DNA of 64,000 bases, from contig NZ_CP072943.1 of NCBI RefSeq assembly GCF_018069705.1, positions 1,043,260 through 1,107,259 of the forward strand, written 5' to 3'. The translations under genes and the position numbers were made by a program. This stretch comes from Aminithiophilus ramosus (lineage in GTDB: Bacteria; Synergistota; Synergistia; Synergistales; Aminithiophilaceae). The stretch's first letter is position 1; the number at the start of each line of letters is the position of its first letter. Positions 33,725-58,800 of this stretch are shown here, piece by piece. Below the pieces are notes generated by a model that made no database searches, was not told where the DNA came from, and saw only the letters and a list, made by a program, of their open reading frames with translations.

Positions 33725-34003
33725 ATAACGTCTTTTAGGTCGGGGGGAGAGCCCCCCGTTGGATCCCGTGTCGGCGTCCGACCTGCACAGCCTCCGCCCG
33801 GGTTATCCTGCGAAATCCCACATTACAATTGTAAAGCCTTTCGGCACGCCAACAATACGGCTAACGATACGGACATCGATCCGGCAAGCGATACGGTTAT
33901 CGTCAACAGCTTTTTTCTCCAAAGGAAAACTACGGGAGGCATCGCGATACACGAAATCAAGAATAAATCCACTAAGAATAGTTTTTTAATTTTATTGATC
34001 TTT
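33725..34003. other. Intergenic region with hairpin and GATACGG repeats
   Basis: No gene seen. It holds a second hairpin CGGGGGG-AGAG-CCCCCCG (33741-33758) and a run of related short words (AATACGG, GATACGG, GATACGG) near 33850-33900 that could be protein-binding sites. The sequence shifts from GC-rich to AT-rich across it, marking the edge of the imported cassette. Confidence 0.4.
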
Positions 34004-34582
34004 TTAGATTTCGAATTCGCCTCGTTTTTTAAGAAAAACAAAAAAATCAAGCACATACATCTGATGAACCATTTTCATGATTTGCCATGTATTGCGAATA
34101 GAAAGGCTTGTCAACCCATAAAGCAAAGCTCTGAATATTATAGACACCTTTTCTGCATATTCATATGATCCCAACCTAAGCCCCAAAGAACTAAAAAAAC
34201 CAATCCCGGCAAGTCCCCAAAAACAAATAGTCATAATAGAAATAAATAACGCAAGTAAATAGCAAAAAGAATATTCAAACACTCCACCAGCTTTAAATCT
34301 TTCGATATGTTGAATATTTTCCGAACTGATCATAGCCTGTATAGTTCCTGACCAAGCGCAGGAAACCCCTATCAATATTCCAGATAGCGGAAATAAAATC
34401 TTTTCCGCAGCTTCAAGACTTGAAATCGGAACTATCCATGCAATAAACATACCAAAAATAAAATGCATAAATAAAAATTTATTTAATATTCTTCTGTAGC
34501 CAGGAGTAAGTTCGCTTATCCCATGAAAGAACCACTTCCAAAAATATAGAAGCTCTAAAATTAAATAATTATTTTGATTCAA
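34004..34582 (-). CDS. Four-helix membrane protein (RexB-like partner)
   Basis: This 192-residue AT-rich protein has four predicted membrane helices (about 33-53, 62-80, 105-130, 145-163), short loops and charged ends. It follows the 285-residue gene by 3 nt, so the two form a tight pair. A cytoplasmic sensor of about 280 aa plus a four-helix membrane effector is the layout of lambda RexA-RexB and related prophage exclusion systems. Sequence similarity to RexB itself is not evident. Confidence 0.6.
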   Translation of the reverse strand: MNQNNYLILELLYFWKWFFHGISELTPGYRRILNKFLFMHFIFGMFIAWIVPISSLEAAEKILFPLSGILIGVSCAWSGTIQAMISSENIQHIERFKAGGVFEYSFCYLLALFISIMTICFWGLAGIGFFSSLGLRLGSYEYAEKVSIIFRALLYGLTSLSIRNTWQIMKMVHQMYVLDFFVFLKKRGEFEI

Positions 34583-38266: not shown

Positions 38267-38462
38267 CGCCGGCGCCTCCCTGTGGTAAAATAGTGCGGGA
38301 GCGGCAACTCCCGCCTGAGCTTTGCCCATGCCCGCCGTCCTGGCGGGCCTTCTTTTTCAAATCGCACCGTTGCGGGATGGAAACAACCTCCCGAAACCTA
38401 CTGATCCATCGCGGCCCCCGAGGGCGCTCGTCGAGGAGCGCCTGCATCTTTCGGATGTTCAT
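38259..38462 (-). CDS. Small hybrid ORF read through repeat R1
   Basis: The frame starts MNIRKMQALLDERPRGPRWIS at ATG 38462 (ATGA overlap with the upstream gene). It then reads through R1, which encodes VSIPQRCDL, and ends at 38259 in the next gene's start region. The C-terminal half therefore looks like a junction product rather than an original gene end. Confidence 0.45.
   Translation of the reverse strand: MNIRKMQALLDERPRGPRWISRFREVVSIPQRCDLKKKARQDGGHGQSSGGSCRSRTILPQGGAGDE
38295..38314 (-). promoter_or_regulatory. Leader hairpin motif, copy 2
   Basis: GCGGGAG-CGGCAA-CTCCCGC forms a 7-bp stem upstream of ATG 38266, mirroring copy 1 at 38067-38084. It could be an operator or an RNA structure. 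Confidence 0.5.
38330..38357 (+). terminator. Intrinsic terminator ending in repeat R1
   Basis: GCCCGCC-GTCCT-GGCGGGC followed by CTTCTTTTT on the plus strand runs directly into R1. No plus-strand gene precedes it, so a short plus-strand RNA would be the transcript it ends. Confidence 0.65.
38356..38384 (+). repeat. CRISPR-repeat-like element R1
   Basis: 29 nt, TTCAAATCGCACCGTTG...GATGGAAAC. It differs from the consensus only in GATGG for GATTG. The 3' GAAAC end and internal ATCG-ACC-GGGATTG layout match type I/III CRISPR repeats. It follows a terminator T tract. Confidence 0.8.
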
Positions 38463-38746
38463 GCCCTCAACTTCATCCCCTTTCCCTTGAATGCCCATAG
38501 GGCTATATGCCCCCCATTCCAGAGTTCGTTGCACCCCTCCAGCCACTCAAGCGCCGCTTCGGTGTCGAGGAATCCAATGACATCCTCGACCTCCGCCGAG
38601 GGATCACGGAGGACCACCGCCACCAGCGGCCAGTCCTCCGGCTCCGGCACCGGCTCCAGCCGGGCCAGAAGGCGCTGAAAAAACGACGGCCGCCGGTACG
38701 GCCCGCGCACGGCGCCGGTTTCGATCAATCGTTCAATCCGCACCAT
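38459..38746 (-). CDS. Hypothetical protein between R1 and R2, 95 aa
   Basis: The frame starts MVRIERLIETGAVRGPYRRPSFFQ at ATG 38746, 12 nt from R2, and its GAGGAGG ribosome site abuts the repeat. It is acidic in the middle (EPEDWPLVAVVLRDPSAEVEDVIG) with no recognised family. It overlaps the next gene by ATGA. Confidence 0.6.
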   Translation of the reverse strand: MVRIERLIETGAVRGPYRRPSFFQRLLARLEPVPEPEDWPLVAVVLRDPSAEVEDVIGFLDTEAALEWLEGCNELWNGGHIALWAFKGKGMKLRA

Positions 38747-38756
38747 TGCCGCCCTC

Positions 38757-38785
38757 CTCAAATCGCACCGTTGCGGGATTGAAAC
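38757..38785 (+). repeat. CRISPR-repeat-like element R2
   Basis: Consensus copy with C in place of the first T. On the minus strand it supplies the last codons and TGA stop of the HTH gene to its right (FQSRNGAI), and its other edge abuts the ribosome site of the gene to its left. Confidence 0.85.
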
Positions 38786-39048
38786 AACCAACGGTACTTT
38801 TTCACCTTCTCGTTGGGGTCAAGGACCTCGAACGGGCAAGGGGTCTCTTTCATTCGTCGCCCCAGCGTCGACCGACTGATCCCGTACTTTTCGCAGAACA
38901 CCCTTGCCGGGAGCCATGGATTCTCTTCGCCCGACAGCATCTGGTTCCGGGCAATCATGTCCAGCAGCCGGTCCACTTTCGCGTTCAGCTCGGCGATTTG
39001 CCTGGGCGTCGTCTCATCGACGACGAAAACGGTCTGCCCTGGCGTCAT
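38758..39048 (-). CDS. HTH protein ending inside R2
   Basis: This 96-residue protein has an N-terminal helix (RQIAELNAKVDRLLDMIARNQ) and an HTH-like core (VFCEKYGISRSTLGRRMKE). The final residues QSRNGAI and the stop codon are encoded by R2. It overlaps the ribbon-helix-helix gene upstream by 35 nt. It is probably a regulator, target unknown. Confidence 0.65.
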   Translation of the reverse strand: MTPGQTVFVVDETTPRQIAELNAKVDRLLDMIARNQMLSGEENPWLPARVFCEKYGISRSTLGRRMKETPCPFEVLDPNEKVKKYRWLFQSRNGAI

Positions 39049-39253
39049 TGCGTCTACCTCCTTGATCGTTGAAATTGAAGGTCTGCAGATCCTTCACACC
39101 TTCCGCCCTTTCCATGGCCTCTCTGATCAGCCGCCTCAGCAGACATCCGCAACTCAAGCCTCGCCTCGATGCCTCTGAGGCGAGCCAGTCATACTCGCCC
39201 TCGGTCAGCCGCACCGAAAAAGCACGACTGAGCCTCGATGCAGTTCTACCCAT
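39014..39253 (-). CDS. Ribbon-helix-helix regulator
   Basis: This 79-residue protein has the pattern AFSVRLTEGEYDWLASEASRRGL followed by CGCLLRRLIREAMERAEG, a CopG/Arc-type ribbon-helix-helix fold. ATG 39253 has GAGGCGG upstream. It is divergent from the small gene at 39323, with a 69-nt shared control region containing TTGTGATACATTGGGGGACAA. Confidence 0.65.
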   Translation of the reverse strand: MGRTASRLSRAFSVRLTEGEYDWLASEASRRGLSCGCLLRRLIREAMERAEGVKDLQTFNFNDQGGRRNDARADRFRRR

Positions 39254-39322
39254 CCGCCTCACCGCCTGGATTTCGCCATACTGTTGTGATACATTGGGGG
39301 ACAATTAAAGGGGGGATCGAAA

Positions 39323-39517
39323 ATGAGATCTCCAAATATCGCCACCACATTCACGTTCAAAAATTCGAGCTTCGTCTTTGAAGTCTACGCCTTCAGGAAA
39401 GTCACTCAAAAAGAAGGTCTCTTGGCCCTTTCTCAATGGATGAAGCAGTACAAGCACAAGACGATTCCTCGTCGCGGAAAGGGTAAAGCGATAACCATAT
39501 TTGGCTTTGATGAATAA
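39323..39517 (+). CDS. Small phage protein, 64 aa
   Basis: Start ATG 39323 has AGGGGGG 7 nt upstream. The sequence includes FTFKNSSFVFEVYAFRKVTQKEGLLAL and a basic C-terminus. No family recognised. It overlaps a minus-strand frame (39402-39668) by 116 nt, and both have good ribosome sites. Confidence 0.55.
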   Translation: MRSPNIATTFTFKNSSFVFEVYAFRKVTQKEGLLALSQWMKQYKHKTIPRRGKGKAITIFGFDE

Positions 39518-39668
39518 GCAGCTCCGCCAGCAACAAAGCTTCTCCGGGATTAATGAACGTGATCGATTTTCGACCGAAGAGACCCATCGTTACGATTCCG
39601 GTCTCTTCGTCCTGAAACAGATCGAAGCGCAAGTGCTTCGAAGGACTTTCTTCGGGTACTTCTGACAT
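39402..39668 (-). CDS. Small phage protein, 88 aa, antiparallel overlap
   Basis: Start ATG 39668 lies 17 nt from R3 and has GGGAGGTG upstream. The sequence HLRFDLFQDEETGIVTMGLFGRKSITFINPGEALLLAELLIH looks like a folded beta-alpha protein. The last 116 nt overlap the plus-strand gene, so one of the two may be shorter or non-coding. Confidence 0.5.
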   Translation of the reverse strand: MSEVPEESPSKHLRFDLFQDEETGIVTMGLFGRKSITFINPGEALLLAELLIHQSQIWLSLYPFRDEESSCACTASSIEKGPRDLLFE

Positions 39669-39684
39669 TCATTCACCTCCCATA

Positions 39685-39713
39685 TTCGAATCGAACCGTT
39701 GCGGGATTGAAAC
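39685..39713 (+). repeat. CRISPR-repeat-like element R3
   Basis: 29 nt with G and A in the 5' half (TTCGAATCGAACCG...GGGATTGAAAC). It lies just upstream of the 88-aa gene and just beyond the 3' end of the XRE gene to its right. Confidence 0.8.
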
Positions 39714-39752
39714 TTGAAACTTATTGAAAACGATTGTCAAGGTGCCCTTCCC

Positions 39753-40174
39753 TCAGCTCAGAGCCTCGTCCAGTACGTGTCTCAGCCGCTGGCAGTGCTC
39801 CCGCCTGAGTGGGTCGTCGATCCGGCCGTTGTCCGTCAAGTCGAAAACCGTCTCCAGATCGACCAGAACCGGCGTACTCGCGTCGAGGGCCTCCCGGAAC
39901 CGCCGGGCCTCCTCGACGTGCGGGTTCAGTTGCCCCCCGGCCCCCGATCGGCCGGGGGGGTCGTAGGGTTTCCGTAGATCAGCAAATAAAGCTCCCCGTT
40001 TGGAAGCCCAAGCGCGGCCTCAAGAGCCGCGAGATTCTTGGCGTCTGTCGGGGAATATTTCTCATTTTCCCAATCACAAACCGTTGTTCGGGTACACCCG
40101 ATTTTTTGAGCCAACTCACCTTGGGTCATGCCGATGTCGCGCCTCGCCTTTCTTATTACGTCTCCGCACCCCAT
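39753..40174 (-). CDS. Module A: XRE repressor with C-terminal domain in -1 frame
   Basis: Residues 1-82 carry an XRE HTH (MTQGELAQKIGCTRTTVCDWENEKYSPTDAKNLAALE) and the linker NPTTPPADRGPGGN, then a stop at 39926. The -1 frame continues QLNPHVEEARRFREALDAS and ends HVLDEALS at 39753. The junction is G_GGG_GGC. A related copy at 44815-45215 keeps the same frame relation. It is either programmed frameshifting or a one-base error in a G tract. It is divergent from the XRE gene at 40324. Confidence 0.7.
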
Positions 40175-40230
40175 CCCCTCACCTCCTTTTATTCTGGTCT
40201 ACTTGGATTTTATGGCCAACCCCCCACTAA

Positions 40231-40299
40231 AGTCAAGTCAACTTTTACAAGTAGGTTGCGTTGACTTTTCTTGACTATTCTTGTTCCGGAAAGTAGGGT
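40231..40299. promoter_or_regulatory. Module A operators and promoter
   Basis: TTGACT half-sites occur inverted at 40231 and 40236 (AGTCAA) and direct at 40261 and 40271. The last is also a -35 (TTGACT, 17 nt, TAGGGT at 40294-40299) for the rightward gene. AGTCAAC and GTTGACT form a dyad around 40251. Confidence 0.55.
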
Positions 40300-40323
40300 T
40301 TACTTGAAATGGGGGGAAGCGCC

Positions 40324-40779
40324 ATGATCACCGGCGAAGAAATCCGGCGGTTACGCAAGGAGAAGAAATGGACACAGCAGGACTTGGCCAATGAGGTCGG
40401 CGTTGCAAAAACCACCGTTCTGGACTGGGAGAAAAACCGATATTCCCCAGAGGGCAAGAACGTGAACAATTTGGCCCGCGCCCTCAACGTCTCCATCGCC
40501 TACCTCATGGGCGAGACCGACGAGCCCCGGCCCGTCTCCCCTGCCGCCGGGCCACCCCAAAAACCGGCCTCCGGAGACTTCAACCCGACCGGGCTTCAGG
40601 AGAAGCTGCTCGAATTTCTGGCCGCCGTTCACGACAGAGGCAAAACCTCACCTGATTTTCTGGATCTCATCCGCCAGGTGAATGCTCTGAGCGAAGACGA
40701 AAAGCAGCTCCTGCTCCTCTGGCGCTCCCTGTCCCCGGAAAAACAGGAAACGGCGCTGCGCCTGCTGAAGGCCCTGTGA
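40324..40779 (+). CDS. Module A: XRE-family repressor, rightward
   Basis: This 151-residue protein has an XRE HTH in residues about 5-62 (LRKEKKWTQQDLANEVGVAKTTVLDWEKNRYSPEG), a linker AYLMGETDEPRP shared with two other repressors in this region, and a C-terminal helical domain (LQEKLLEFLAAV, LSPEKQETALRLLKAL). It is probably a CI-like lysogeny repressor. The ATG at 40324 has GGGGGG upstream. The stop is 10 nt before R4. Confidence 0.85.
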   Translation: MITGEEIRRLRKEKKWTQQDLANEVGVAKTTVLDWEKNRYSPEGKNVNNLARALNVSIAYLMGETDEPRPVSPAAGPPQKPASGDFNPTGLQEKLLEFLAAVHDRGKTSPDFLDLIRQVNALSEDEKQLLLLWRSLSPEKQETALRLLKAL

Positions 40780-40788
40780 GCCTCAAGA

Positions 40789-40817
40789 TTCAAATCGCAC
40801 CGTTGCGGTGTGGAAAC
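40789..40817 (+). repeat. CRISPR-repeat-like element R4
   Basis: TTCAAATCGCACCGTTGC then GGTGTGGAAAC, differing from the consensus in the last third. It is followed at 9 nt by a promoter and leader RNA. Confidence 0.78.
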
Positions 40818-40825
40818 GCAATCCC

Positions 40826-40853
40826 TTGACATCTTTCCCGAGCCTTGTAGAAT
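40826..40853 (+). promoter_or_regulatory. Promoter downstream of R4
   Basis: TTGACA (40826-40831), 16 nt, TAGAAT (40848-40853). It drives the nested-hairpin leader and the two genes that follow. Confidence 0.7.
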
Positions 40854-40881
40854 TTGATCGTCCCATATCGTTCGTTTACGC

Positions 40882-40931
40882 CCCCAGAGGATGAAGGCAG
40901 CCCCTTCGGCAGTTTGGTTCTCTGGGGTTTT
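40882..40931 (+). ncRNA. Nested-hairpin leader RNA, copy 1
   Basis: The outer stem CCCCAGAGGA (40882-40891) pairs with TTCTCTGGGG (40918-40927). Inside it GAAGG (40893-40897) pairs with CCTTC (40903-40907) around the loop CAGCC. TTTT follows. Copy 2 at 42264-42314 has the same loop with compensating changes in both stems. It acts as an attenuator or terminator in the 5' leader. Confidence 0.7.
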
Positions 40932-40955
40932 CCCTTCACGAAAGGAGGAGACACC

Positions 40956-41162
40956 ATGAGCCCCAGCGATTTCCTCTTCGCGACACCGAGCTTCTTGCGC
41001 GGCATGGCTTCGGTGCTTGACATGGGCGATACCCTTTCCGTCTTCAACACCACGGACACTCTCAACGACGCCGATTCTCGGGCAACGGCTGCCGATTGGC
41101 AGGCTGTCGGCCAGGATATCCGTAAGGCCTTGAAGGAATACCAAGCAACGCATGCCCTCTAA
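40956..41162 (+). CDS. Small conserved protein (SDFLFATPSF type), 68 aa
   Basis: The sequence SDFLFATPSFLRGMASVLDMG with the later DWQAVGQDIRKALKEY matches a small uncharacterised protein type that I have seen next to DUF2335 genes in phages and plasmids. ATG 40956 has AAGGAGGAG upstream, directly after the leader RNA. It overlaps the DUF2335 gene by 11 nt, so the two are coupled. Confidence 0.7.
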   Translation: MSPSDFLFATPSFLRGMASVLDMGDTLSVFNTTDTLNDADSRATAADWQAVGQDIRKALKEYQATHAL

Positions 41163-41562
41163 CCGCTCCCGATCCCTTCTCCAGGCAAAAACCACTCGCA
41201 TCGTACGCACCGAGGCCTATGAAGGGCCTCTTCCGTCGCCCGAAATTCTCGCTCGCTACAATGAAGTATGCCCGGGAGCAGCGGAGAGAATCCTGGTCAT
41301 GGCGGAGAACCAAGCCCGACACCGGCAGGGACTGGAGGCGGAGGTTATCCGTTCGCGAACCAGAGACAGCCGGTGCGGAATTTTCTGTGGCCTTGCCATC
41401 GGCATCAGCAGCATCGTCTGTGGCACAGCTGCCGTGATCTGGGGCCATTCCTGGGCCGGGACCTTTATTGGCACCGGCGGAGTGGCGGGTCTTGTCGGTG
41501 TCTTCATCCACGGAACAAATTCCAGCCGCGCCGAGCGCGAAGCAAAAGCTTCCCAAAACTGA
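41152..41562 (+). CDS. DUF2335-family membrane protein
   Basis: This 136-residue protein has the DUF2335 opening YEGPLPSPEILARYNEVCPGAAERILVMAENQARHR and two membrane helices near the C-terminus (CGIFCGLAIGISSIVCGTAAVIWG and TFIGTGGVAGLVGVFIHG). The family is uncharacterised, with a cytoplasmic N-terminus expected. It forms a two-gene unit with the small gene upstream. Confidence 0.8.
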   Translation: MPSNRSRSLLQAKTTRIVRTEAYEGPLPSPEILARYNEVCPGAAERILVMAENQARHRQGLEAEVIRSRTRDSRCGIFCGLAIGISSIVCGTAAVIWGHSWAGTFIGTGGVAGLVGVFIHGTNSSRAEREAKASQN

Positions 41563-41586
41563 CATCACCGCTTCCACCCCGTCTCT

Positions 41587-41615
41587 TTCAACCCGCATCG
41601 TTTCCGTGTAGAACC
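41587..41615 (+). repeat. Degenerate CRISPR-repeat-like element R4b
   Basis: 22 of 29 positions match R4 (TTCAACCCGCATCGTTTCC...GTAGAACC). It is in the same orientation as the others and again lies at a gene boundary, providing the stop codon for a remnant minus-strand frame. Confidence 0.55.
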
Positions 41616-41668
41616 AGCCTGCGCACCAGCCCCGCCAGTTCCTCCCCCTCCGGTTTGCCCTTGCTCAT
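41588..41668 (-). pseudogene. Remnant of an XRE repressor C-terminus ending in R4b
   Basis: A 26-residue frame (PEGEELAGLVRRLVLHG) resembles the C-terminal end of the XRE protein at 42959-43351 (PEGAELVGLIRNLAE). Its TGA stop lies within R4b. It appears to be the stub of the leftward partner of the next repressor. Confidence 0.5.
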
Positions 41669-41695
41669 CTCGCCACCAAACGGTAGCATTCCCCT

Positions 41696-42148
41696 ATGAG
41701 CAAACAAACGGTCTTCTCTATGCGGTTGAAAGAATTGAGGGAGTTGCGAGGATTTGAACGGCCAGAACTGGCCTCAATTGCCGGTTTCTCTGCTGAAACT
41801 ATTGCGAGATACGAGCGCGGAGAGCGAGAACCCAAGGCAAGCGATATTCAGGCTCTCGCCCGCATCCTCAACACCACTGCAGCCTACCTCATGGGCGAGA
41901 CCGACGACCCCCGGCCGAGAACCCGCGAAGAGAGCTTCGAGATCCAGGCCCCCGTCGAGACGGACATGATCGTCGCAAAGCGATCCCCGATCCAGGCGGC
42001 TCCCGATGAGATCGAGCTCGTAGTCCGCCGAGGCGGACATCGCTACGCCACGACCATCCCCCTCGAGAGCGCCACGGAAGAGACGGTCCGCATCGCCATG
42101 AACTACCTGCGGAGCCTGGCGGAGCGAGACGGCCCCGACGGAGTATGA
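41696..42148 (+). CDS. XRE-family repressor between R4b and R5
   Basis: This 150-residue protein has an HTH (residues about 6-62, LRELRGFERPELASIAGFSAETIARYERGEREPKASD), linker AYLMGETDDPRP and a C-terminal domain FEIQAPVETDMIVAKRSPIQAAPDE then LVVRRGGHRYATTIP. It is intact, while its near-duplicate at 44294-44730 is frameshifted. The stop is 2 nt before R5. No full leftward partner remains. Confidence 0.85.
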   Translation: MSKQTVFSMRLKELRELRGFERPELASIAGFSAETIARYERGEREPKASDIQALARILNTTAAYLMGETDDPRPRTREESFEIQAPVETDMIVAKRSPIQAAPDEIELVVRRGGHRYATTIPLESATEETVRIAMNYLRSLAERDGPDGV

Positions 42149-42149
42149 C

Positions 42150-42178
42150 TTCAACTCGCACCGCCGAGGGATTGAAAC
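42150..42178 (+). repeat. CRISPR-repeat-like element R5
   Basis: 29 nt, TTCAACTCGCACCGCCGAG then GGATTGAAAC. It is identical to R7, and R5 with R7 form a subtype. The duplicated block 41883-42178 ends at its last base. Confidence 0.8.
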
Positions 42179-42189
42179 TATTAAAAATA

Positions 42190-42217
42190 TTGACAGGCAA
42201 TCGTTTTGTGGTACCCT
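42190..42217 (+). promoter_or_regulatory. Promoter downstream of R5
   Basis: TTGACA (42190-42195), 16 nt and a weak TACCCT -10 lie before the second leader RNA. This mirrors the arrangement after R4. Confidence 0.5.
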
Positions 42218-42263
42218 GGATATGCGCACGCGGGCAGGTGTTGGCGTGCGAGATTGGTTTAAT

Positions 42264-42317
42264 CCCCCCGAGGATGGAGGCAGCCCCTCCGGCATCTAGT
42301 CCTTGGGGGGTTTTGTT
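42264..42317 (+). ncRNA. Nested-hairpin leader RNA, copy 2
   Basis: The outer stem CCCCCCGAGGA (42264-42274) pairs with TCCTTGGGGGG (42300-42310). The inner stem GGAGG/CCTCC (42276-42280 with 42286-42290) holds the same CAGCC loop as copy 1. TTTTGTTT follows. Stem bases differ from copy 1 but pairing is kept. Confidence 0.7.
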
Positions 42318-42331
42318 TGGGAGGGATCCGC

Positions 42332-42922
42332 GTGCAGGAGCCGCAGACCAAACGCCTTCACGTCTTCTTCGATTGCCAGAACCTCTTTCATGCCTGCCGA
42401 AAAGCCTGGGACTACGATTGCCCCAACTTCGATCCGCTCAAACTTTCCCGATTCCTCTCCAAAATGCATCCCGATTGGACACTGAAGAAGGTTCACGTTT
42501 ACACGGGCATTCATGATTCGAAGGTCAATCCCAGACTTCACTCGTTTTGGACCAACAAGTTGGCGCTCCTGAACCAATCCCCCCAAGTAGAGATCATCAC
42601 CCGTCCCCTGAGATACACTTCATGCGATGGAATAAAAGTGGCTCGCGAAAAAGGCATTGATGTGCGTATCGCCTTGGACCTCGTTCGCCTGGCTCGTACC
42701 AATGAGTTCGACGTGGCGGCCCTCTTCAGCCAGGACAACGATTTCCGCGAAGTCTCCGACGAAATCCGCGCCATAGCCAGGGAGTTCGACCGCTGGATCA
42801 AGATCGCCTCCGCATTCCCCGGTGTTCCGAATGCGAAAGGGATCGACCGCACGGACTGGATCCCCGTCCCGAAGGAAGACTACGACCGCTGCATCGATCC
42901 GAACGACTACTCCGCGCCATAA
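42332..42922 (+). CDS. NYN/PIN-domain putative RNase
   Basis: This 196-residue protein has the NYN acidic pattern: FFDCQNLFHACR (Asp near residue 14), KGIDVRIALDLVRLA and FSQDNDF. This resembles LabA-type nucleases acting on RNA with a metal ion. GTG 42332 has GGGAGG 6 nt upstream, straight after the leader RNA. A PIN-like nuclease under an attenuator in an immunity region suggests an accessory or exclusion function. Confidence 0.85.
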   Translation: MQEPQTKRLHVFFDCQNLFHACRKAWDYDCPNFDPLKLSRFLSKMHPDWTLKKVHVYTGIHDSKVNPRLHSFWTNKLALLNQSPQVEIITRPLRYTSCDGIKVAREKGIDVRIALDLVRLARTNEFDVAALFSQDNDFREVSDEIRAIAREFDRWIKIASAFPGVPNAKGIDRTDWIPVPKEDYDRCIDPNDYSAP

Positions 42923-42958
42923 ACCGCCATTTCGGTTTTCAAGGTCCGCCTTCCCTGT

Positions 42959-43351
42959 CTACTCCGCCAAATTCCTGATCAGCCCAACCAGCTCCGCGCC
43001 CTCCGGCGTGTCGGGGCTCCCGTCCTGGAGGTCCAGTGCCGCCGTCACCACCCGGTGCGGTTCGGACATGAACCGGCACAGCTTCGGGATCGCCTCCACA
43101 TTCACGCCATGCTTCCGAGACGTGATATCATCGTCTTCGCCATCGTCTTCCCGCAGTTGCCGCTGCGGTTGAAACAAGTCCCGAACGTTGCCGTTCAACA
43201 GCTCAGCGATGGAGATGGCCGTCTCCACGTTGGGTTTCGTTGTGCCCGCCTCGATGTTCTGGTAGTTGCGGACACTGATTCCGATTGCCTGTGCCACCTG
43301 CTCCTGTGTCATCCGGCACGAGTTGCGCGCTTGTACGAGTTCTTTTCTCAT
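42959..43351 (-). CDS. Module B: XRE-family repressor, leftward
   Basis: This 130-residue protein has an HTH (ARNSCRMTQEQVAQAIGISVRNYQNIEAGTTKPN, about residues 8-42), an acidic linker (REDDGEDDD) and a C-terminal domain whose last part (160 nt of DNA) is duplicated perfectly at 43669-43828. It is divergent from 43445, with two operators between. Confidence 0.85.
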   Translation of the reverse strand: MRKELVQARNSCRMTQEQVAQAIGISVRNYQNIEAGTTKPNVETAISIAELLNGNVRDLFQPQRQLREDDGEDDDITSRKHGVNVEAIPKLCRFMSEPHRVVTAALDLQDGSPDTPEGAELVGLIRNLAE

Positions 43352-43374
43352 GGATCACCATCCTCTTGTTGTGG

Positions 43375-43425
43375 CACGCATTATTTAGCGTGTCAAGGGG
43401 ACTCTATCACGTATTATTTAGCGTG
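43375..43425. promoter_or_regulatory. Module B operators O1 and O2
   Basis: CACGCATTATTTAGCGTG (43375-43392) and CACGTATTATTTAGCGTG (43408-43425) are imperfect palindromes 33 bp apart, about three helix turns. On the minus strand each overlaps a TTGACA -35 box for the leftward gene. Confidence 0.75.
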
Positions 43426-43444
43426 TCAAGTGAGGTGCATCTGA

Positions 43445-43654
43445 ATGTTCTCTGAGCGCCTGAAGTCTCTTCGTAAGGCTCGTGGTGTTACTCAAAAAGC
43501 CCTTGCCGCCTCCTTGGGGCTCTCTGAACGCCACTACCAGGGCATTGAGTACGGAGAAACAAAGCCTGGATTCGACAACCTCATCGCCCTCGCGGACTAC
43601 TTCGACGTGTCCCTCGACTACCTGGTTGGGCGATCGGACAACCCCGGGCGATAG
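43445..43654 (+). CDS. Module B: small XRE (Cro-like) regulator, rightward
   Basis: This 69-residue HTH-only protein (LRKARGVTQKALAASLGLSERHYQGIEYGETKPGFDN) with tail DYLVGRSDNPGR looks Cro-like. It is divergent from the module B repressor across two palindromic operators. Confidence 0.82.
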   Translation: MFSERLKSLRKARGVTQKALAASLGLSERHYQGIEYGETKPGFDNLIALADYFDVSLDYLVGRSDNPGR

Positions 43655-43668
43655 CCCTGCCAGATCCT

Positions 43669-43828
43669 TCCGCCTTCCCTGTCTACTCCGCCAAATTCCT
43701 GATCAGCCCAACCAGCTCCGCGCCCTCCGGCGTGTCGGGGCTCCCGTCCTGGAGGTCCAGTGCCGCCGTCACCACCCGGTGCGGTTCGGACATGAACCGG
43801 CACAGCTTCGGGATCGCCTCCACATTCA
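43669..43828 (-). pseudogene. 160-bp duplicate of the module B repressor 3' end
   Basis: This block is identical base for base to 42945-43104. The identity ends within the first four bases of R6, and the remainder of the repressor gene is absent. It is a fragment joined to the repeat. Confidence 0.85.
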
Positions 43829-43853
43829 AATCGCACCGTTGCGGGATTGAAAC
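43825..43853 (+). repeat. CRISPR-repeat-like element R6
   Basis: Consensus copy (TTCAAATCGCACCGTTGC then GGGATTGAAAC). Its left edge is the breakpoint of the 160-bp duplication. On the minus strand it provides the end QSRNGAI and stop of the module C repressor. Confidence 0.85.
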
Positions 43854-44122
43854 TCCGTCTCGACCGTCTCCTTGCCCCCCGGCCCCCGATCGGCCGGGGG
43901 GGGCGTAGGGTTTCCGTCGACAAAAATCATCTTGTAGAGTGCACCTGCCGTAAGCCCCAGCGCCCCTTCCAGACGAGCGAGGTTCTGCCCGTCGGTGGGA
44001 GCATATTTCTCGGATTCCCAGTCATAAATTGCCGACCTGGAGACTCCGACTTTTTCAGCCAACGCAACTTGACTAAGTCCTGTCGCTTGCCTGGCTTCCC
44101 GAATTACTGCTCCGAATCCCAT
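43826..44122 (-). CDS. Module C: XRE-family repressor, leftward, ending inside R6
   Basis: This 98-residue protein has an HTH (ARQATGLSQVALAEKVGVSRSAIYDWESEKYAPTDGQN) and the linker NPTPPPADRGPGG shared with module A. The module A C-terminal domain is replaced by a short tail that reads into R6 and stops there. ATG 44122 has AAGGAGGTG upstream. Confidence 0.78.
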   Translation of the reverse strand: MGFGAVIREARQATGLSQVALAEKVGVSRSAIYDWESEKYAPTDGQNLARLEGALGLTAGALYKMIFVDGNPTPPPADRGPGGKETVETEFQSRNGAI

Positions 44123-44147
44123 TGGAACACCTCCTTGCATAGCAAAC

Positions 44148-44233
44148 TAGTCAATACACTCAGCATGGTAGGATTATTTCCGCGGATTGTCAAGCACACT
44201 AAGCGGAATTGCATAGTTGACTAATGTTGACTA
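44148..44233. promoter_or_regulatory. Module C operators
   Basis: TTGACTA occurs at 44217-44223 (in TAGTTGACTA) and 44227-44233, with the inverse TAGTCAA at 44148-44154. The words are related to, but arranged differently from, those of module A. Confidence 0.5.
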
Positions 44234-44293
44234 TTGCCAAGTGAGACGTAGACTTTACTTGACACGAATGCTGAGGCGGGGGGTAAAAGGCGA

Positions 44294-44730
44294 GTGATTT
44301 CTGGTGGCGAGATAAAAGCTCTTAGAAAAAGTCGAGGGTTGTCACAGCAAGAACTCGCCGACGCGACAGGGGTCTCCAGGTCTGCGGTTTATCTTTGGGA
44401 ATCGGGGACCCACCCGCCGGTGGGGAAAAATCTCCAAGCCCTCGCCCGCGCCCTCAACGTCTCGACCGCCTACCTCATGGGCGAGACCGACGAGCCCCGG
44501 CCGAGAAACCGCGAAGAGAGCTTCGAGATCCAGGCCCCGTCGAGACGGACATGATCGTCGCAAAGCGATCCCCGATCCAGGCGGCTCCCGATGAGATCGA
44601 GCTCGTAGTCCGCCGAGGCGGACATCGCTACGCCACGACCATCCCTCGAGAGCGCCACGGAAGAGACGGTCCGCATCGCCATGAACTACCTGGGAGCCTG
44701 GCGGAGCGAGACGGCCCCGACGGAGTATGA
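44294..44730 (+). pseudogene. Module C: XRE repressor, rightward, frameshifted
   Basis: The GTG start at 44294 gives an HTH (LRKSRGLSQQELADATGVSRSAVYLWESGTHPP). After the linker, 44469-44760 duplicates 41883-42178 with four one-base losses, mostly in C runs, breaking the C-terminal domain after IQAPSRRT. The stop of the original frame would be 2 nt before R7, as at R5. Confidence 0.75.
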
Positions 44731-44731
44731 C

Positions 44732-44760
44732 TTCAACTCGCACCGCCGAGGGATTGAAAC
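44732..44760 (+). repeat. CRISPR-repeat-like element R7
   Basis: Identical to R5 over 29 nt. The sequences diverge immediately after the last C (T at R5, C at R7). Confidence 0.8.
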
Positions 44761-44814
44761 CTCTTCCCTTGTGGTTTGCCTTTCGATTGTCAAGGTGCCC
44801 TTCCCTCAGCTCCC

Positions 44815-45215
44815 TCAGCTCAGAGCCTCGTCCAGTACGTTTCTCAGCCTCTGGCAGTGCTCCCGCCTTGCCGGGTCGTCCGATGCGGCCGTTGTTGGCC
44901 AGGTCGAAAACGGTGTCGAGTGCCGCGAGAATCGGCCCGCTTTCGTCGAGGGCTTCCCGGAACCGCCGGGCCTCCTCGACGTGCGGATTGTTCAGTTGCC
45001 CCCGGCCCCCGATCGGCGGGGGGTCGTAGGGTTTCCGTCAAGAATCTCCTCTACAGAAACGGACAGGATTTCCGCGAGTCTTTTAACGTCGGACGCTCTG
45101 GGCTCCCGAAGCCCTGCCTCATACCTGGCGATGGTCCGAGAGGAAAGACACTCAGTCTAGCCAATTCTCCCTGGCTTAATTCGGCTGCTTCTCTAAACGC
45201 TCTGAGTCGCTCCAT
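44815..45215 (-). pseudogene. Module D: XRE repressor, leftward, frameshifted
   Basis: ATG 45215 begins MERLRAFREAAELSQGELARL. The rest of the HTH (SRTIARYEAGLREPRASDVKRLAEIL) is in another frame. The linker GNPTTP, the G tract and the C-terminal domain (QLNNPHVEEARRFREALDES) match module A, with a further shift near GRIG. At least two indels separate it from an intact gene. Confidence 0.7.
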
Positions 45216-45233
45216 GCTCATCACCTCCCCTCC

Positions 45234-45367
45234 AGACCAACTGGTCTTGGATGTCATCATAGAAGACCGAAAGGTCTTTGTCAATGGGTTTTGCCCCAAC
45301 AAAAGACCAAACAGTCTTTCGCAATAAGACCGATTTGGACATTGCCACCCGGCAGACCAATCGGTAC
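45234..45367. promoter_or_regulatory. Module D operators, five AGACC-N4-GGTCT sites
   Basis: Sites start at 45234 and 45264 (both perfect), and 45304, 45327 and 45354 (imperfect right halves AGTCT, TGGAC and GGTAC). They fill the interval between the two divergent XRE frames. Confidence 0.75.
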
Positions 45368-47047: not shown

Positions 47048-47224
47048 ATGAGAGAAACAGAAAAAAATAACTCCAATAATATTCAGTGCAAGAACGTTGT
47101 GGTCTCCATTGCCGGGAAGGGCACTTCCGTCAAGAGAGTTTGCCTTCCCGAGAAACGTCGGCACACAATGGAGGCAATCATCAACAAACGCAAATCTGCT
47201 CTCGATGTCCTCGCCAAATATTGA
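47048..47224 (+). CDS. Probable antitoxin of the Doc-type pair
   Basis: This 58-residue basic protein (MRETEKNNSNNIQ, then VVVSIAGKGTSVKRVCLPEKRRH) overlaps the Doc gene by 20 nt, the usual antitoxin position. It does not look like canonical Phd. Confidence 0.55.
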   Translation: MRETEKNNSNNIQCKNVVVSIAGKGTSVKRVCLPEKRRHTMEAIINKRKSALDVLAKY

Positions 47225-47597
47225 GTGGCTGACAGAAGACGACATCTGGGAGGCAATCTCGACTCTTCAGGCCAAGTACCGGGAAGACCCCATTTGTGTC
47301 ATCAATCCCGGCCCTATTGAGTATGTCCTTAACTTGGAAAGCCTTTCGTACTTTTACGACGATGATCCCCTTCTCATAGCGGCAACCAAAATCCGAACAA
47401 TCATCAAGGGACATCCGTTGCTTGATGGCAACAAGCGTTTGGGTATGGTTGTCGGAACCTATTTTCTGGACATAAATGGCTTCAATCTGATTGCGTCGGA
47501 CGATAGCTTCGCCAGCATCGCCATCAGCTTGGCCAGCGGAGAAGCGAACATGGAAGATCTTATCGAATGGATCAAGGTCAACTCTTTGGCCAAATAA
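47205..47597 (+). CDS. Doc/Fic-family toxin
   Basis: This 130-residue protein has the Fic core HPLLDGNKRLG (residues 70-80), fitting HxFxDGNKR-type active sites that transfer phosphate or AMP to targets such as EF-Tu. The short length matches Doc. It is probably a plasmid- or prophage-maintenance toxin. ATG 47205 lies within the antitoxin gene end. Confidence 0.85.
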   Translation: MSSPNIEWLTEDDIWEAISTLQAKYREDPICVINPGPIEYVLNLESLSYFYDDDPLLIAATKIRTIIKGHPLLDGNKRLGMVVGTYFLDINGFNLIASDDSFASIAISLASGEANMEDLIEWIKVNSLAK

Positions 47598-50274: not shown

Positions 50275-50772
50275 ATGACAAAAGATCCTCGAAAGCTGGC
50301 TGCCGACCTCGTGGCAAGGCTCGGTTTTCGCCACCCGCCGGTGATGGTCCGCAAGGCATGCAGGGCCTTGCGGATTCCGGTGAAGATTCTCCCCCTCGAC
50401 CGGGACGGCTACTCCGTCGATGTCGGCGGTCACCCCTTCATCTTCCTTTCTTCGCGCCTTTCACGAGAACGCCTTCGTTGGACGGCCGCCCACGAGCTGG
50501 GGCACGTCCTCCTCGGCCATGGGCCCATGATGGCCGCCGATGGAACAGGACCCCTGGAACGTCCGGCTCATGTCTTCGCCGAGGAGCTGCTCATGCCGTC
50601 GGCTTTCATCGATGAAGCGATCGGGCATTTCCGGAGCCGCTGCATGCGTTTCGCCCCGGAGGACCTGGCTCCCCGCTTCGGGGTGTCGCTGGAAGCGATG
50701 AGGATCCGGCTGGAGACAAAAAAGAACGACCAACATCGAAAGGAGACAAAAAATGGACAGCAATCGAGATGA
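50275..50772 (+). CDS. ImmA/IrrE-family metallopeptidase
   Basis: This 165-residue zinc protease has HELGH (residues 73-77) and the downstream Glu in FAEELLMP (about 103-104). The family cleaves XRE-type repressors to trigger prophage induction (ICEBs1 ImmA, phage homologues). This prophage has an XRE array nearby, so one or more of those repressors is the probable substrate. ATG 50275 has GGAGG 7 nt upstream. Confidence 0.92.
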   Translation: MTKDPRKLAADLVARLGFRHPPVMVRKACRALRIPVKILPLDRDGYSVDVGGHPFIFLSSRLSRERLRWTAAHELGHVLLGHGPMMAADGTGPLERPAHVFAEELLMPSAFIDEAIGHFRSRCMRFAPEDLAPRFGVSLEAMRIRLETKKNDQHRKETKNGQQSR

Positions 50773-51361: not shown

Positions 51362-51391
51362 CTCCAGTTTTAATCCAAAGACATATTCTAA

Positions 51392-52262
51392 GGAACCTCT
51401 GAAAAAAGCGCCTTTCATGAAGTCGCATCAGCGATGATGTAATTGGTAGAATAGAGCTGTAGCGCCGATGTCCTCATCCCCTTTTCAAGGAGTGCGAGAC
51501 GAAATGGAGCGACAGAAAACCCTTGCCGACGCCCAGACCTTCGAGAGATACAGGAAGCCTACCCGGCGGGAGAAGTTCCTCTCCGAAATGGAGGCTGTGG
51601 TCCCCTGGAAGGATCTCTGCGCGCTCATCGCTCCCTTCTATCCCAAGGCCGAACGAGGTCGTCCACCGGTTGGATTGGAGCGGATGCTCCGAATCCACTT
51701 TCTCCAGTGCTGGTTCAACCTCAGCGACCCGGCAGCGGAAGAAGCCCTCTACGACATGGAATCGATGAGGCGCTTCGTCGGCATCGACCTCGGGAACGAG
51801 CCTGTCCCCGACGAGACGACCATCTGCAAGTTTCGCCACCTTCTCGAAGCGCACGACCTGGGGAAACGGATCTTCCGTGAGGTCGATGCTCACCTGCAAT
51901 CGAAAGGACTGCGTCTTGCCGAGGGAACCATCATGGACGCCACCATCATCGCCGCGCCCTCGTCGACGAAGAACAAGGAGAAGAAGCGAGACCCCGACAT
52001 GCATCAGGTAAAGAAAGGGAACCAGTACTACTTCGGCATGAAGGTCCACATCGGGGTGGACAAAGACAGCAAGCTGGTCCACAGCCTCGCGACCACGGCG
52101 GCGAATGTCCACGACTCCCGGATGGTCGGAGACCTTCTCCACGGAGCGGAAAAGGGAGTCTGGGGCGATTCGGCCTACATAGGCAAGACGGAGACGATCC
52201 GGGAAAAGGCACCCGATGCCGTCGACAACACCAACAAAAGAGGGTCACGGAACAGGAAACTG
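51392..52262 (+). mobile_element. IS5-family element, truncated at its right end by IS3
   Basis: The left end starts GGAACCTCTGAAAAA. The right end is missing, because sequence passes directly into the IS3 end at 52263, and the lost part is not found beyond the IS3 copy. Confidence 0.75.
51468..52262 (+). pseudogene. IS5-family transposase, C-terminus lost
   Basis: The frame shows MRRFVGIDLGNEPVPDETTICKFRHLLE, the first catalytic Asp in MDATIIAAPSSTKN and the second in WGDSAYIG. The C-terminal Glu-bearing helix is absent. The natural frame is cut at about NKRGSRNRKL, after which IS3 sequence supplies a foreign end and stop at 52307. Confidence 0.85.
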
Positions 52263-52349
52263 TATAGTGGACCCCGAAAACTGGACCACGAGCTAAGTTG
52301 CAGTTGAAGTCGGGCTGTATCATAGGGTCCCAGAAAGAGAGGGGACATC

Positions 52350-52633
52350 ATGGCAGCCAAGCGACAGAGGCGTTCAGCGGAGTTCAAAAGCAAAGTAGCC
52401 TTCGCTGCCCTGAAAGGGATAAGACCCTGGCTCAATTGTCGGGTGAGTTCGAGGTTTCCGCCGTCCAGATCGGTCAGTGGAAGAAGCAGCTTCTGCAAGG
52501 GGGTCCGGAGATCTTTCAACGCAAAGGCACTCCGATGGATGTCGAGACGTTGATGGCCCCCCTCTACCAGGAGATCGGTCGGCTCAAGATGGAGCTCGAC
52601 TGGCTCAAAAAAAAATCAGGCGCTGACGCTTGA
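52350..52633 (+). pseudogene. IS3 orfA, one-base deletion
   Basis: MAAKRQRRSAEFKSKVAFAALKG is followed by a frame change because GGGG is GGG at about 52418 compared with copy 2. The C-terminal leucine-zipper part (PLYQEIGRLKMELDWLKKK) is intact in the original frame. Confidence 0.85.
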
Positions 52634-53480
52634 GGGAAAGCGGACCTCCATCGATCCCGAGCACCCTTCGATCAGTGTTCGTCGGCAATGTGACCTCCTT
52701 GATCTTAACCGGTCCAGCTTCTACTACGCGAGCTCTTCCGCGACGGAGACGGCGGAGAACCTTGAAATCATGGAGCTCATCGACGGCCGGTACACCTGCG
52801 CCCCCTCTTACGGGAGCCGCCGGATGACGGCCTGGCTGCGTCGACAGGGACAGGACGTGAACCGCAAACGGATCGGACGGCTGATGAGGCTTATGGGGCT
52901 CGAAGGGATTGGCCCCAAACCGGGAACCAGCAAGCCTCACCCCGAACATGAGATTTATCCCTACCTGCTCCGGAACGCCGTCATCGTCAGACCGAATCAG
53001 GTCTGGAGCACCGATGTCACCTACCTCCCGATGAGTGGCGGTTTCATGTACCTCGCGGCCGTCATCGATTGGCACAGCCGCTTCGTCCTCTCCTGGGAAC
53101 TTTCCAACACCCTGGACGCAGAGTTCTGCGTCGTCGCCCTCGACAGGGCCCTTCGGCAGGGAACGCCGGAGATCTTCAACACCGACCAGGGCTGTCAGTT
53201 CACCAGTAAGGCCTTTCTGTCTCTGCTCAAGGAAAAGGAGATCCGGATCAGCATGGACGGTCGTGGCAGGGCCCTCGACAACATCTTCGTGGAACGCTTC
53301 TGGCGGACCCTCAAGTATGAGTGGCTCTACTTGAACGACTATGAGCGGGTCCGCGATCTCCGCTGCGGCCTGCGGGAGTATATGGACTTCTACAACGACG
53401 AAAGGCTTCACTCCTCACTGAACTACAGGACACCGCGGGAGGTTCACTTTGCCGACCGGGAGGGACCGATGGCGGTCTGA
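52614..53480 (+). CDS. IS3 orfB transposase (expressed by -1 frameshift on A9)
   Basis: Nine A residues (52607-52615) at the end of orfA allow slippage into this frame (NQALTLEGKRTSIDPEH onward). The DDE triad is visible: DVTYLPMSGG, NTDQGCQFTS and DNIFVERFWR. Alone it could start at ATG 52770. Confidence 0.88.
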   Translation, partial: NQALTLEGKRTSIDPEHPSISVRRQCDLLDLNRSSFYYASSSATETAENLEIMELIDGRYTCAPSYGSRRMTAWLRRQGQDVNRKRIGRLMRLMGLEGIGPKPGTSKPHPEHEIYPYLLRNAVIVRPNQVWSTDVTYLPMSGGFMYLAAVIDWHSRFVLSWELSNTLDAEFCVVALDRALRQGTPEIFNTDQGCQFTSKAFLSLLKEKEIRISMDGRGRALDNIFVERFWRTLKYEWLYLNDYERVRDLRCGLREYMDFYNDERLHSSLNYRTPREVHFADREGPMAV

Positions 53481-53530
53481 CTTTAACTAACTTCGGGCCT
53501 CAAATGGTCTTGACAATGGGGTCCACCATA

Positions 53531-54768
53531 ATTTGCTCGGTTTTGACGCTAACCTGATCGAGAGTCACTACAAAAAAGAGCAAGAGCTTGCACAAATGCA
53601 GAATGCAATAAAGACCATTGAGAAGGATATGAATGGTTCTTTTGAGGATGTCAGCAAGATTGAGGGCATTCTGTTACTCAAACAGAAGGATGCGGAGAAG
53701 AAACAAGGGTTACTTGATGCCTTCGATTTTCGCCTCCCTGACAAGGATCAAACCAAACGGTTGGTTGAGGAAGTTAATGAGCGCATTGCGTCCCTCAACG
53801 CCGAACGCTACTCGCTCAGTCAGAACCGCAAGAAAGTGCTCGCTTCCCTACAAGAAGGCCAAATTTTGTTTAATCCCGACGAGGCTCAGCAACTGTTCAA
53901 GGAAGCTGGCATTTTTTTTGAAGGCCAGATCAAGAAGGATTTTCAACAGTTAATCGCATTCAATCGAGCAATCACTGAAGAGCGCCGCGGCTATCTACGA
54001 GAGGAACTCGCTGAGATTGACACTAAACTGAAGCGTGTCAATGACGAGCTGAACACCCTGGGGGAAAAACGCTCAACGACGCTCTCATTCCTAAGTGAAA
54101 CTGATACTTTCATCAAGTACAAGCAACTCTCAGATGAAATAATTTCTCTGCGTGCTGACATCGCTTCCCTGGAAAAGCAGCGTAACCACCTACACAGATT
54201 GCAGAATTTACGGGCAGAAATACGGCCTCTCACTGAGGAACGAAACAACCTTCAAACAGAGATTGAGGCAGATGTGGATAAACAGAACTCCGACAAGGAC
54301 AGCCTATTCTCAACGATCCGTGTCTTCTTCAGCGAGATCGTCGAGGCAGTCATCGACCGCAAGGCATTATTGAGTGTCGCATCAAACCAAGCCGGTCACC
54401 TGGAGCTTAAGGCCGAAATCCTTGACGGGGCCGGCAACGCAACTGACGCAGATTTTGGGCATACTTATCGCAAGCTCCTCTGTGTAGCCTTCGACTTGGC
54501 AGTGCTTCGAGCACATCTGAACGACAGATTTCCTCGCTTTGTCTACCATGATGGCGTTCTCGAATCTTTAGATGATCGAAAGAAAGAGAATTTGCTTGCG
54601 ATCATCCGCCAATATGCGGGGCTTGGATTACAGCCAATCATCACGTTGATTGATTCAGATTTACCATCCCGCTCACACAAAGAAACTTTATTTGCTGAAG
54701 ACGAATTAATTTTGACCTTGCATGACAAAGGGAACCAAGGGCGATTGTTCAAAATGGATTCATGGTAA
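53531..54768 (+). pseudogene. DUF2326-type SMC-like ATPase, N-terminus missing
   Basis: The remaining 411 residues are a long coiled coil followed by RKLLCVAFDLAVLRAHLNDRFPRFVYHDGVLESLDDRKKENLL, the ABC signature and Walker B-like end of DUF2326/YydD proteins. These are ATPases of ABC three-component and other putative anti-phage systems. The N-terminal Walker A domain is absent, because the frame begins at the IS3 edge. Partner genes are not present. Confidence 0.8.
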
Positions 54769-57883: not shown

Positions 57884-57933
57884 TATGGTGGACCCCATTG
57901 TCAAGACCATTTGAGGCCCGAAGTTAGTTAAAG

Positions 57934-58800
57934 TCAGACCGCCATCGGTCCCTCCCGGTCGGCAAAGTGAACCTCCCGCGGTGTCCTGTAGTTCAGTGAG
58001 GAGTGAAGCCTTTCGTCGTTGTAGAAGTCCATATACTCCCGCAGGCCGCAGCGGAGATCGCGGACCCGCTCATAGTCGTTCAAGTAGAGCCACTCATACT
58101 TGAGGGTCCGCCAGAAGCGTTCCACGAAGATGTTGTCGAGGGCCCTGCCACGACCGTCCATGCTGATCCGGATCTCCTTTTCCTTGAGCAGAGACAGAAA
58201 GGCCTTACTGGTGAACTGACAGCCCTGGTCGGTGTTGAAGATCTCCGGCGTTCCCTGCCGAAGAGCCCTGTCGAGGGCGACGACGCAGAACTCTGCGTCC
58301 AGGGTGTTGGAAAGTTCCCAGGAGAGGACGAAGCGGCTGTGCCAATCGATGACGGCCGCGAGGTACATGAAACCGCCACTCATCGGGAGGTAGGTGACAT
58401 CGGTGCTCCAGACCTGATTCGGTCTGACGATGACGGCGTTCCGGAGCAGGTAGGGATAAATCTCATGTTCGGGGTGAGGCTTGCTGGTTCCCGGTTTGGG
58501 GCCAATCCCTTCGAGCCCCATAAGCCTCATCAGCCGTCCGATCCGTTTGCGGTTCACGTCCTGTCCCTGTCGACGCAGCCAGGCCGTCATCCGGCGGCTC
58601 CCGTAAGAGGGGGCGCAGGTGTACCGGCCGTCGATGAGCTCCATGATTTCAAGGTTCTCCGCCGTCTCCGTCGCGGAAGAGCTCGCGTAGTAGAAGCTGG
58701 ACCGGTTAAGATCAAGGAGGTCACATTGCCGACGAACACTGATCGAAGGGTGCTCGGGATCGATGGAGGTCCGCTTTCCCTCAAGCGTCAGCGCCTGATT
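57934..58800 (-). CDS. IS3 orfB transposase, copy 2
   Basis: Same product as in copy 1, with the DDE residues in DVTYLPMSGG, NTDQGCQFTS and DNIFVERFWR. It is reached by -1 slippage on A9 (58799-58807, minus strand). Confidence 0.9.
   Translation of the reverse strand, partial: NQALTLEGKRTSIDPEHPSISVRRQCDLLDLNRSSFYYASSSATETAENLEIMELIDGRYTCAPSYGSRRMTAWLRRQGQDVNRKRIGRLMRLMGLEGIGPKPGTSKPHPEHEIYPYLLRNAVIVRPNQVWSTDVTYLPMSGGFMYLAAVIDWHSRFVLSWELSNTLDAEFCVVALDRALRQGTPEIFNTDQGCQFTSKAFLSLLKEKEIRISMDGRGRALDNIFVERFWRTLKYEWLYLNDYERVRDLRCGLREYMDFYNDERLHSSLNYRTPREVHFADREGPMAV

Follow-up and report, generated by a model that had tools for sequence, protein, structure and literature searches.

Solitary host-type CRISPR repeats as possible recombination joints between the immunity modules of a prophage in Aminithiophilus ramosus

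The stretch considered here, called the window, comprises 64,000 nt of the Aminithiophilus ramosus genome (NCBI RefSeq assembly GCF_018069705.1, contig NZ_CP072943.1, positions 1,043,260 to 1,107,259 of the forward strand), and coordinates without a label refer to it. In the immunity region of a prophage (38356-44760), eight single copies of a clustered regularly interspaced short palindromic repeat (CRISPR), termed R1 to R7 and R4b, lie between regulatory modules, and one of them is identical to the repeat of the host's own CRISPR array. The best explanation, in our judgement, is that these copies are solitary repeat units (SRUs) of the class of RNA anti-CRISPRs (Racr) that also serve as recombination joints of the immunity modules, an explanation whose chances we put at about even. 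A piece of the host immune system seems to have been put to new use in the phage, as a joint for module exchange and, perhaps, as a decoy against that same immunity.

CRISPR repeats of the host in a prophage immunity region

The host genome (3.11 Mb, a single contig) contains one CRISPR array of 268 repeats (2805211-2822190 of the contig), the repeat of which equals R6 over all 29 nt, 263 of the 268 units being exact. Upstream of the array lie genes for Cmr1, Cas10/Cmr2, Cmr3, Cmr5, Cmr6, a Csm1-type Cas10, Csm4 and a CARF-RelE protein, downstream of it those for Cas2 and Cas1, and the cas locus is of type III-B plus III-A. The host thereby offers what a Racr presupposes, namely a CRISPR-Cas system with a matching repeat. 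An initial annotation, made from the letters of the window, had likened the elements to CRISPR repeats, which an identical 268-unit array beside type III cas genes bears out beyond expectation. The same annotation had named presence all over the host chromosome as speaking against its view. Because the 275 genome copies detected at no more than 3 mismatches in 23 nt comprise the 268 array units and 7 copies in the prophage region, the repeat is not chromosome-wide, and a repetitive extragenic palindrome or bacterial interspersed mosaic element (REP/BIME) is ruled out.

The search for a matching array in the host and its relatives, proposed in that annotation, turned up related repeats in other Synergistota besides the identical host array. 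A scan of GTDB genomes, which may leave out records of the window's own genome, detected the repeat family only in this phylum, in strain L-13 (CP074691; the same-species genome G061), in the metagenome-assembled genome (MAG) SV1-B2.2 (apparently G001) and in MAG UBA5560 (G024). The exact sequence had no match in IMG/VR; two solitary matches to a degenerate pattern there (L074, L075) each fall inside an open reading frame (ORF), on phage contigs that have no relation to the window, and were taken as chance. As to the host array, its spacers measure about 31-38 nt; one interval of 89 nt departs from the usual 60-67, and the 60-nt spacer 258 (L010 16526-16585) includes a partial repeat. A second Cas1-like gene (G000:C1 308029-308682) is distant from the type III locus.

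Counted against the 29-nt sequence TTCAAATCGCACCGTTGCGGGATTGAAAC, R1, R2, R3, R4, R5, R6 and R7 have 1, 1, 2, 3, 4, 0 and 4 mismatches, respectively; all seven are on the + strand, and the - strand of the region holds no copy. R4b (41587-41615, likewise +) is degenerate, with 20/29 identities to the host repeat and 21/29 to that of G024, and none of 5000 shuffles of its letters scored as high, while shuffled copies of the region gave no matches at the mismatch levels of R1-R7. Inclusive of R4b, the intervals from R1 to R7 are 372, 899, 1075, 769, 534, 1646 and 878 nt and enclose no spacers of 30-40 nt, which excludes a CRISPR array or mini-array.

R1 (38356-38384) agrees with the host repeat at 28/29 positions, its sole change (T24G) being the state in the repeats of G001 and G024, and a terminator-like rightward hairpin (38330-38355) abuts its 5' edge. 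R2 (38757-38785; 28/29) forms the 3' end of the - strand ORF 38758-39048, and R3 (39685-39713; 27/29) has C10A in common with the G001 repeat. R4 (40789-40817) is of the G024 type, with 28/29 identities to that repeat and 26/29 to the repeat of its own host. R5 (42150-42178; 25/29 to the host) and R7 (44732-44760), which are identical to each other, represent a third repeat type, and R6 (43825-43853) matches the host repeat at 29/29 positions. The starts of R4, R4b, R5 and R7 are 9, 24, 1 and 1 nt 3' of a + strand stop codon, which belongs to a cI-like gene in the case of R4, to a helix-turn-helix (HTH) gene in that of R5 and to a frameshifted cI-like repressor in that of R7; R2 and R6 supply the last codons and the stop of - strand ORFs. 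Positions, mismatches and shuffle controls bear out the eight same-orientation elements first described in the initial annotation, and their placement at gene boundaries holds with the nuance that R2 and R6 reach into the 3' ends of ORFs on the - strand.

SRUFinder takes as an SRU a sequence that covers 90% or more of a CRISPR repeat at an identity of 90% or more, that has no further repeat, whether full or partial, within 100 bp and that occupies an intergenic position on a mobile element. R1, R2, R3 and R6 are 93-100% identical to the host repeat and R4 is 97% identical to that of G024; R5/R7 (86%) and R4b (about 70%) fall below this identity on their own. Neighbouring repeats are at least 372 nt away, and the setting is a prophage and intergenic, apart from the ORF overlaps of R2 and R6.

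Homology breakpoints, repeat variants and matching spacers

Homology between modules, and between this prophage and another, ends at the repeats, as would be expected of recombination joints. The copies of the 335-nt pair 41844-42178 and 44430-44760, which comprise the 3' ends of two cI-like genes together with R5 or R7, show 95% identity, which breaks off at the very next base (+0 of both repeats). Module R4-R4b is 94% identical to G024:C116 8821-9617, a prophage contig that likewise has tandem cro/cI pairs and belongs to a genome of another family; this homology starts 1 nt after R4 and stops 2 nt before the end of R4b, of which a homologue lies at the same module end in G024 (L039 ~9591-9619). 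An exact 160-nt duplicate of a cro 3' end stops 3 nt into R6, where four bases of microhomology (TTCA) join the repeat to the truncated gene. Breakpoints at repeat edges, including those of the module common to another family's prophage, support the suggestion of the initial annotation that the elements are recombination sites for swapping modules, and with it a role of the repeats as putative joints between immunity modules. A candidate degenerate repeat upstream of the G024 module was not significant (p 0.10), and solitary copies of the relatives' other CRISPR repeats were absent from their homologous immunity loci at up to 8 mismatches.

As far as aligned repeats can tell, the variants track the CRISPR repeats of different hosts. 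All three differences between R4 and the repeat of its own host are G024 states, so that R4 has 3/4 of the diagnostic changes of the G024 repeat, and G024 is the host of the prophage that shares the module following R4. R1 and R3 each share one state with the G001 repeat, and among the differences of R1-R5 from the host repeat, 6/11 are states of the G001 or G024 repeats (p about 9e-5). The third repeat type, R5/R7, has no known host.

Judged by spacer matches, the host lineage holds spacers against the immunity region. Six type III spacers of G061, which is without this prophage, match 38691-44947 at 94-100%, and all six are in + sense, so their CRISPR RNAs (crRNAs) would bind leftward transcripts. 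A type I-E spacer of the same-genus genome G002 (L045 9295-9326) equals 40170-40201 (32/32). Spacer 164 of the host itself agrees with 45210-45234 in 24/25 positions. At none of these sites is the match preceded by a repeat tag that marks self. The G002 match would imply that phages with module R3-R4 have met a second CRISPR type. In G024, an array spacer matches the genome's own prophage contig (L039 7428-7461; 34 nt, 91%).

Module contents and prophage setting

The prophage setting asserted at the outset was recovered: a tRNA (4824) and an integrase gene (4954) are followed by leftward tail, capsid, protease and portal genes, replication genes at 36-37.7 kb and then the immunity region. Across the latter, cro-like genes point leftward and cI-like genes rightward, roles that gene order, size and family matches suggest, and promoter-like leftward sites precede the cro-like genes in four modules. 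The repeats enclose a DUF2335 cassette, an NYN cassette and cro/cI pairs that belong to different subfamilies. Neither the INPHARED phages nor IMG/VR yielded close relatives of these modules. A related prophage with the same gene order and without repeats, which the initial annotation had named as evidence to the contrary, was not found.

Module R3-R4 consists of a cro-like HTH gene (39926-40174, -), which three of the G061 type III spacers match and the 5' end of which is spanned by the G002 type I-E spacer, and of a cI-like HTH repressor gene (40309-40779, +). Module R4-R4b (40818-41613, +), closed by R4b, contains a promoter, a structured leader, a 68-aa ORF (40956-41162) and a gene for a DUF2335 membrane protein (41152-41562). 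Module R4b-R5 begins with a cro 3' remnant and continues with a cI-like HTH gene (41696-42148, +), whose 3' part from 41844 belongs to the 335-nt pair described above. In module R5-R6, a gene for an NYN-domain protein (PF01936; 42317-42922, +), with a promoter-like sequence and a second structured leader upstream, is followed by a cro-like HTH gene of a second family (42959-43351, -; 68% amino-acid identity to the cro of the G024 prophage), a cI-like HTH gene (43445-43654, +) and the exact 160-nt duplicate (43669-43828, -), which repeats the 3' end of the 42959 gene and is cut off at R6. Module R6-R7 holds a cro-like HTH gene (43826-44140, -), which takes its last codons and stop from R6, and a cI-like HTH gene (44294-44730, +) with a frameshift after codon ~80, the 3' part of which is a pseudogene closed by R7. 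Beyond R7, the next module starts with a cro-like HTH remnant (45051-45250, -) behind a leftward promoter (45284-45256), and it is here that host spacer 164 finds its partial match.

The structured leader is conserved, about 64 nt long, has 17 predicted pairs and a terminator-like T run and lies 3' of a promoter-like sequence. Its copies (40871-40931 and 42254-42314 in the window, L039 8874-8935, L042 1399-1461) lie ahead of the DUF2335 cassette, of the NYN gene and, in the case of G031, of an ORF judged RelE-like by eye; a covariance model of the leader found no copies beyond these four in 183 genomes of the order. A hammerhead ribozyme match 5' of R3 (39568-39643) was not accepted, as it scored 26.4 bits, below the gathering score of 34, and lies mostly inside the - strand ORF 39402-39668.

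To the right of the prophage, near-identical (at least 99.5%) insertion-sequence-like copies in inverted orientation occupy 52263-53531 and 57884-59152, and such copies are also present in both flanks (L012, L013). Between the immunity region and these insertion sequences lie a Fic-domain ORF (47097-47597) and an ORF for an IrrE/M78 peptidase (50275-50772). G061 contains a 742-nt remnant (G061:C1 674055-674795; L059 14055-14795) that is 98% identical to 33801-34542 and fused directly to a transposase gene homologous to 51390-52262; apart from this remnant, no clean empty integration site was found in G061.

Proposed mechanism, alternatives and known systems

In the mechanism that we propose, a temperate phage would have copied its repeats from the type III CRISPR repeats of the host lineage and of related hosts, and these would have been placed at the ends of interchangeable modules, which are either accessory cassettes or pairs of cro(-) and cI(+). 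Where such a short repeat is common to two phages, or to a phage and a prophage, these could recombine at it by means of host RecA or a relaxed phage recombinase, and this would swap or add immunity modules and leave one repeat per joint. A decoy role is less certain than this recombination role: rightward repressor transcripts may carry the repeats as RNA decoys of the Racr type for repeat-binding Cas proteins and would then shield the prophage from the host type III system, which attacks its leftward transcripts. R4, R4b, R5 and R7 are directly 3' of + strand genes. Weak rightward promoter-like sites, of which none was found for R1-R3, lie upstream of R6 and R7, and transcription from rightward repressor promoters could extend through R6-R7. 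The initial annotation had also raised a multi-copy Racr locus, which the host-tracking variants and the targeting of the region by the host lineage make plausible. Only tentatively would we go further and propose that host CRISPR repeats are standard ends of immunity cassettes, with a repeat of the current host's type closing each module, so that any repeat-bearing phage or prophage could trade repressor modules there; a traded module would come with an anti-CRISPR decoy of its own, and a single step would confer new superinfection immunity together with protection from CRISPR.

Several observations weigh against the repeats as both Racr-class units and recombination joints. The support from the homology ends, 5/20 of which lie within 4 nt of a repeat edge compared with 0.42 expected, is qualified in that these ends are not all independent and the p value is a guide only. 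The breakpoint comparisons comprise one external and two internal cases, of which the external one carries much of the argument, and in G024 the shared module ends in R4b, whereas no repeat can be recognised where it begins. The full layout is seen in one prophage only, its attachment site attR was not found and it may be defective, and the region is partly decaying, given the degenerate R4b and the frameshifted cI copy. With respect to the decoy, R1-R3 lie in a leftward operon and would be transcribed as repeat antisense, which counts against the decoy or points to a different use of it; most copies have no promoter directly upstream, R1 even following a terminator-like hairpin. No Cas6 was detected by PF10040 in the genome, and L009 18552-19259 has no Cas6 match in Pfam, NCBIfam or PADLOC.

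The elements might instead act solely as a multi-copy Racr locus whose variants cover several hosts, the breakpoints at their edges being a by-product of phage mosaicism at gene ends. This would agree with the exact mimicry of the host repeat, the variants that equal the repeats of other hosts, the targeting of the region by the host lineage and the sense position after cI-like stop codons, and Racr activity has been demonstrated for solitary repeats of several types (PMC10651486). However, type III activity is not among the tests in the accessible part of that paper, R1-R3 are antisense in the surrounding operon and homology stops at the base after the repeat rather than merely near gene ends, and we regard a purely Racr function as rather unlikely. 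The degenerate R4b, the frameshifted cI gene of R6-R7 and the truncated 160-nt duplicate would suit passive relics, i.e. functionless repeats that were acquired from host arrays by past recombination and now mark old joints. Yet R6 is identical and R1-R3 are nearly identical to the host repeat although the surrounding modules have diverged or are unrelated, the differences correspond to the states of other hosts more often than random decay would give, and the flanks match neither a known spacer nor a leader, which leaves such relics distinctly unlikely.

It is also conceivable, if very improbable, that a repeat and the sequence downstream of it, as a mini-array or CreA-like element, form a crRNA-like guide that steers the Cas proteins of the host either to phage promoters or against rival phages. 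The orientation fits the 5' tag of a crRNA (ATTGAAAC, then a spacer-like stretch), but no second repeat closes a spacer of 30-40 nt, and the 40 nt after each repeat are unmatched elsewhere in the window, except for paralogous flanks, and among the spacers of the host itself, G061, G001, G002 and G024. Nor was a CreA-type pseudo-spacer target found in a search that covered the window and the known spacers and not the rest of the genome. The third option of the initial annotation, gene capture by Cas1-like integration, found no support: the repeat-unit-repeat layout and the presence of cas1 and cas2 in the host recall modules inserted as giant spacers by Cas1-Cas2-like integration, but the units measure 372-1646 nt compared with about 31-38 nt in the array, no leader lies near the elements (only the array's trailing partial repeat was matched), and paralogous halves with joins resembling recombination or microhomology replace the uniform inserts to be expected, so we give this option hardly any weight. 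Asymmetric operator or stoperator sites of phage repressors would share the single orientation, the gene boundaries and the repressor region, as do mycobacteriophage stoperators (13 bp; PMC3029335). A chance likeness to CRISPR is, however, scarcely credible given 29/29 identity with a 268-copy host array, sites confined to the immunity region and repressors of different subfamilies.

Phages are known to carry single CRISPR repeats that act as decoys; they are also known to swap modules, usually without a joint that can be seen. In the present prophage the joint can be seen, it is itself a host immune element, and its variants point to the source hosts of the modules. CreA of the CreTA systems, a single repeat-like unit beside a regulated gene, resembles the solitary repeats described here; unlike in CreTA, no complementary pseudo-spacer target was found and no toxin pair was shown. 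With the short conserved boundary sequences between phage modules, the repeats have in common that a shared joint sequence is usable for homologous recombination, whereas in the present case the boundary consists of an immune repeat of the host and differs from one host to another. Host-identical repeats on viruses are also known from viral CRISPR mini-arrays (PMC11656645), but here no 30-40 nt spacers lie between the repeats and no target was found.

Closest to the decoy role are the Racr, RNA anti-CRISPRs from solitary repeat units, which are likewise single repeats in prophages, outside arrays, that match the repeat of the host's own CRISPR-Cas system (PMC10651486). The present locus differs from them in having eight copies, which represent three or more repeat types and all lie at module joints, in its type III host, in the antisense position of some copies relative to their operon and in that its activity is putative only. 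The movement of modules by recombination at repeats draws on two analogues, namely the relaxed phage recombinases, a known recombination agent (PMC3945230), and the repressor theft of mycobacteriophage LRRHood, in which a foreign repressor segment lies between 29-bp direct repeats and for which recombination in the repeat and protection against superinfection were proposed (PMC3029335). In both LRRHood and the present prophage, a repressor segment is bounded by 29-bp direct repeats; the repeat of LRRHood is not described as CRISPR and reflects a single event, whereas host CRISPR repeats and many modules are involved here. The open-access papers searched yielded no account of immunity modules bounded by several solitary repeats. 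Solitary phage repeats and repressor theft are already known, whereas their combination as a multi-copy, repeat-bounded immunity region seems not to have been described; if true, it would link two matters that have been investigated separately, the exchange of temperate-phage immunity regions and the reason why phages keep CRISPR repeats.

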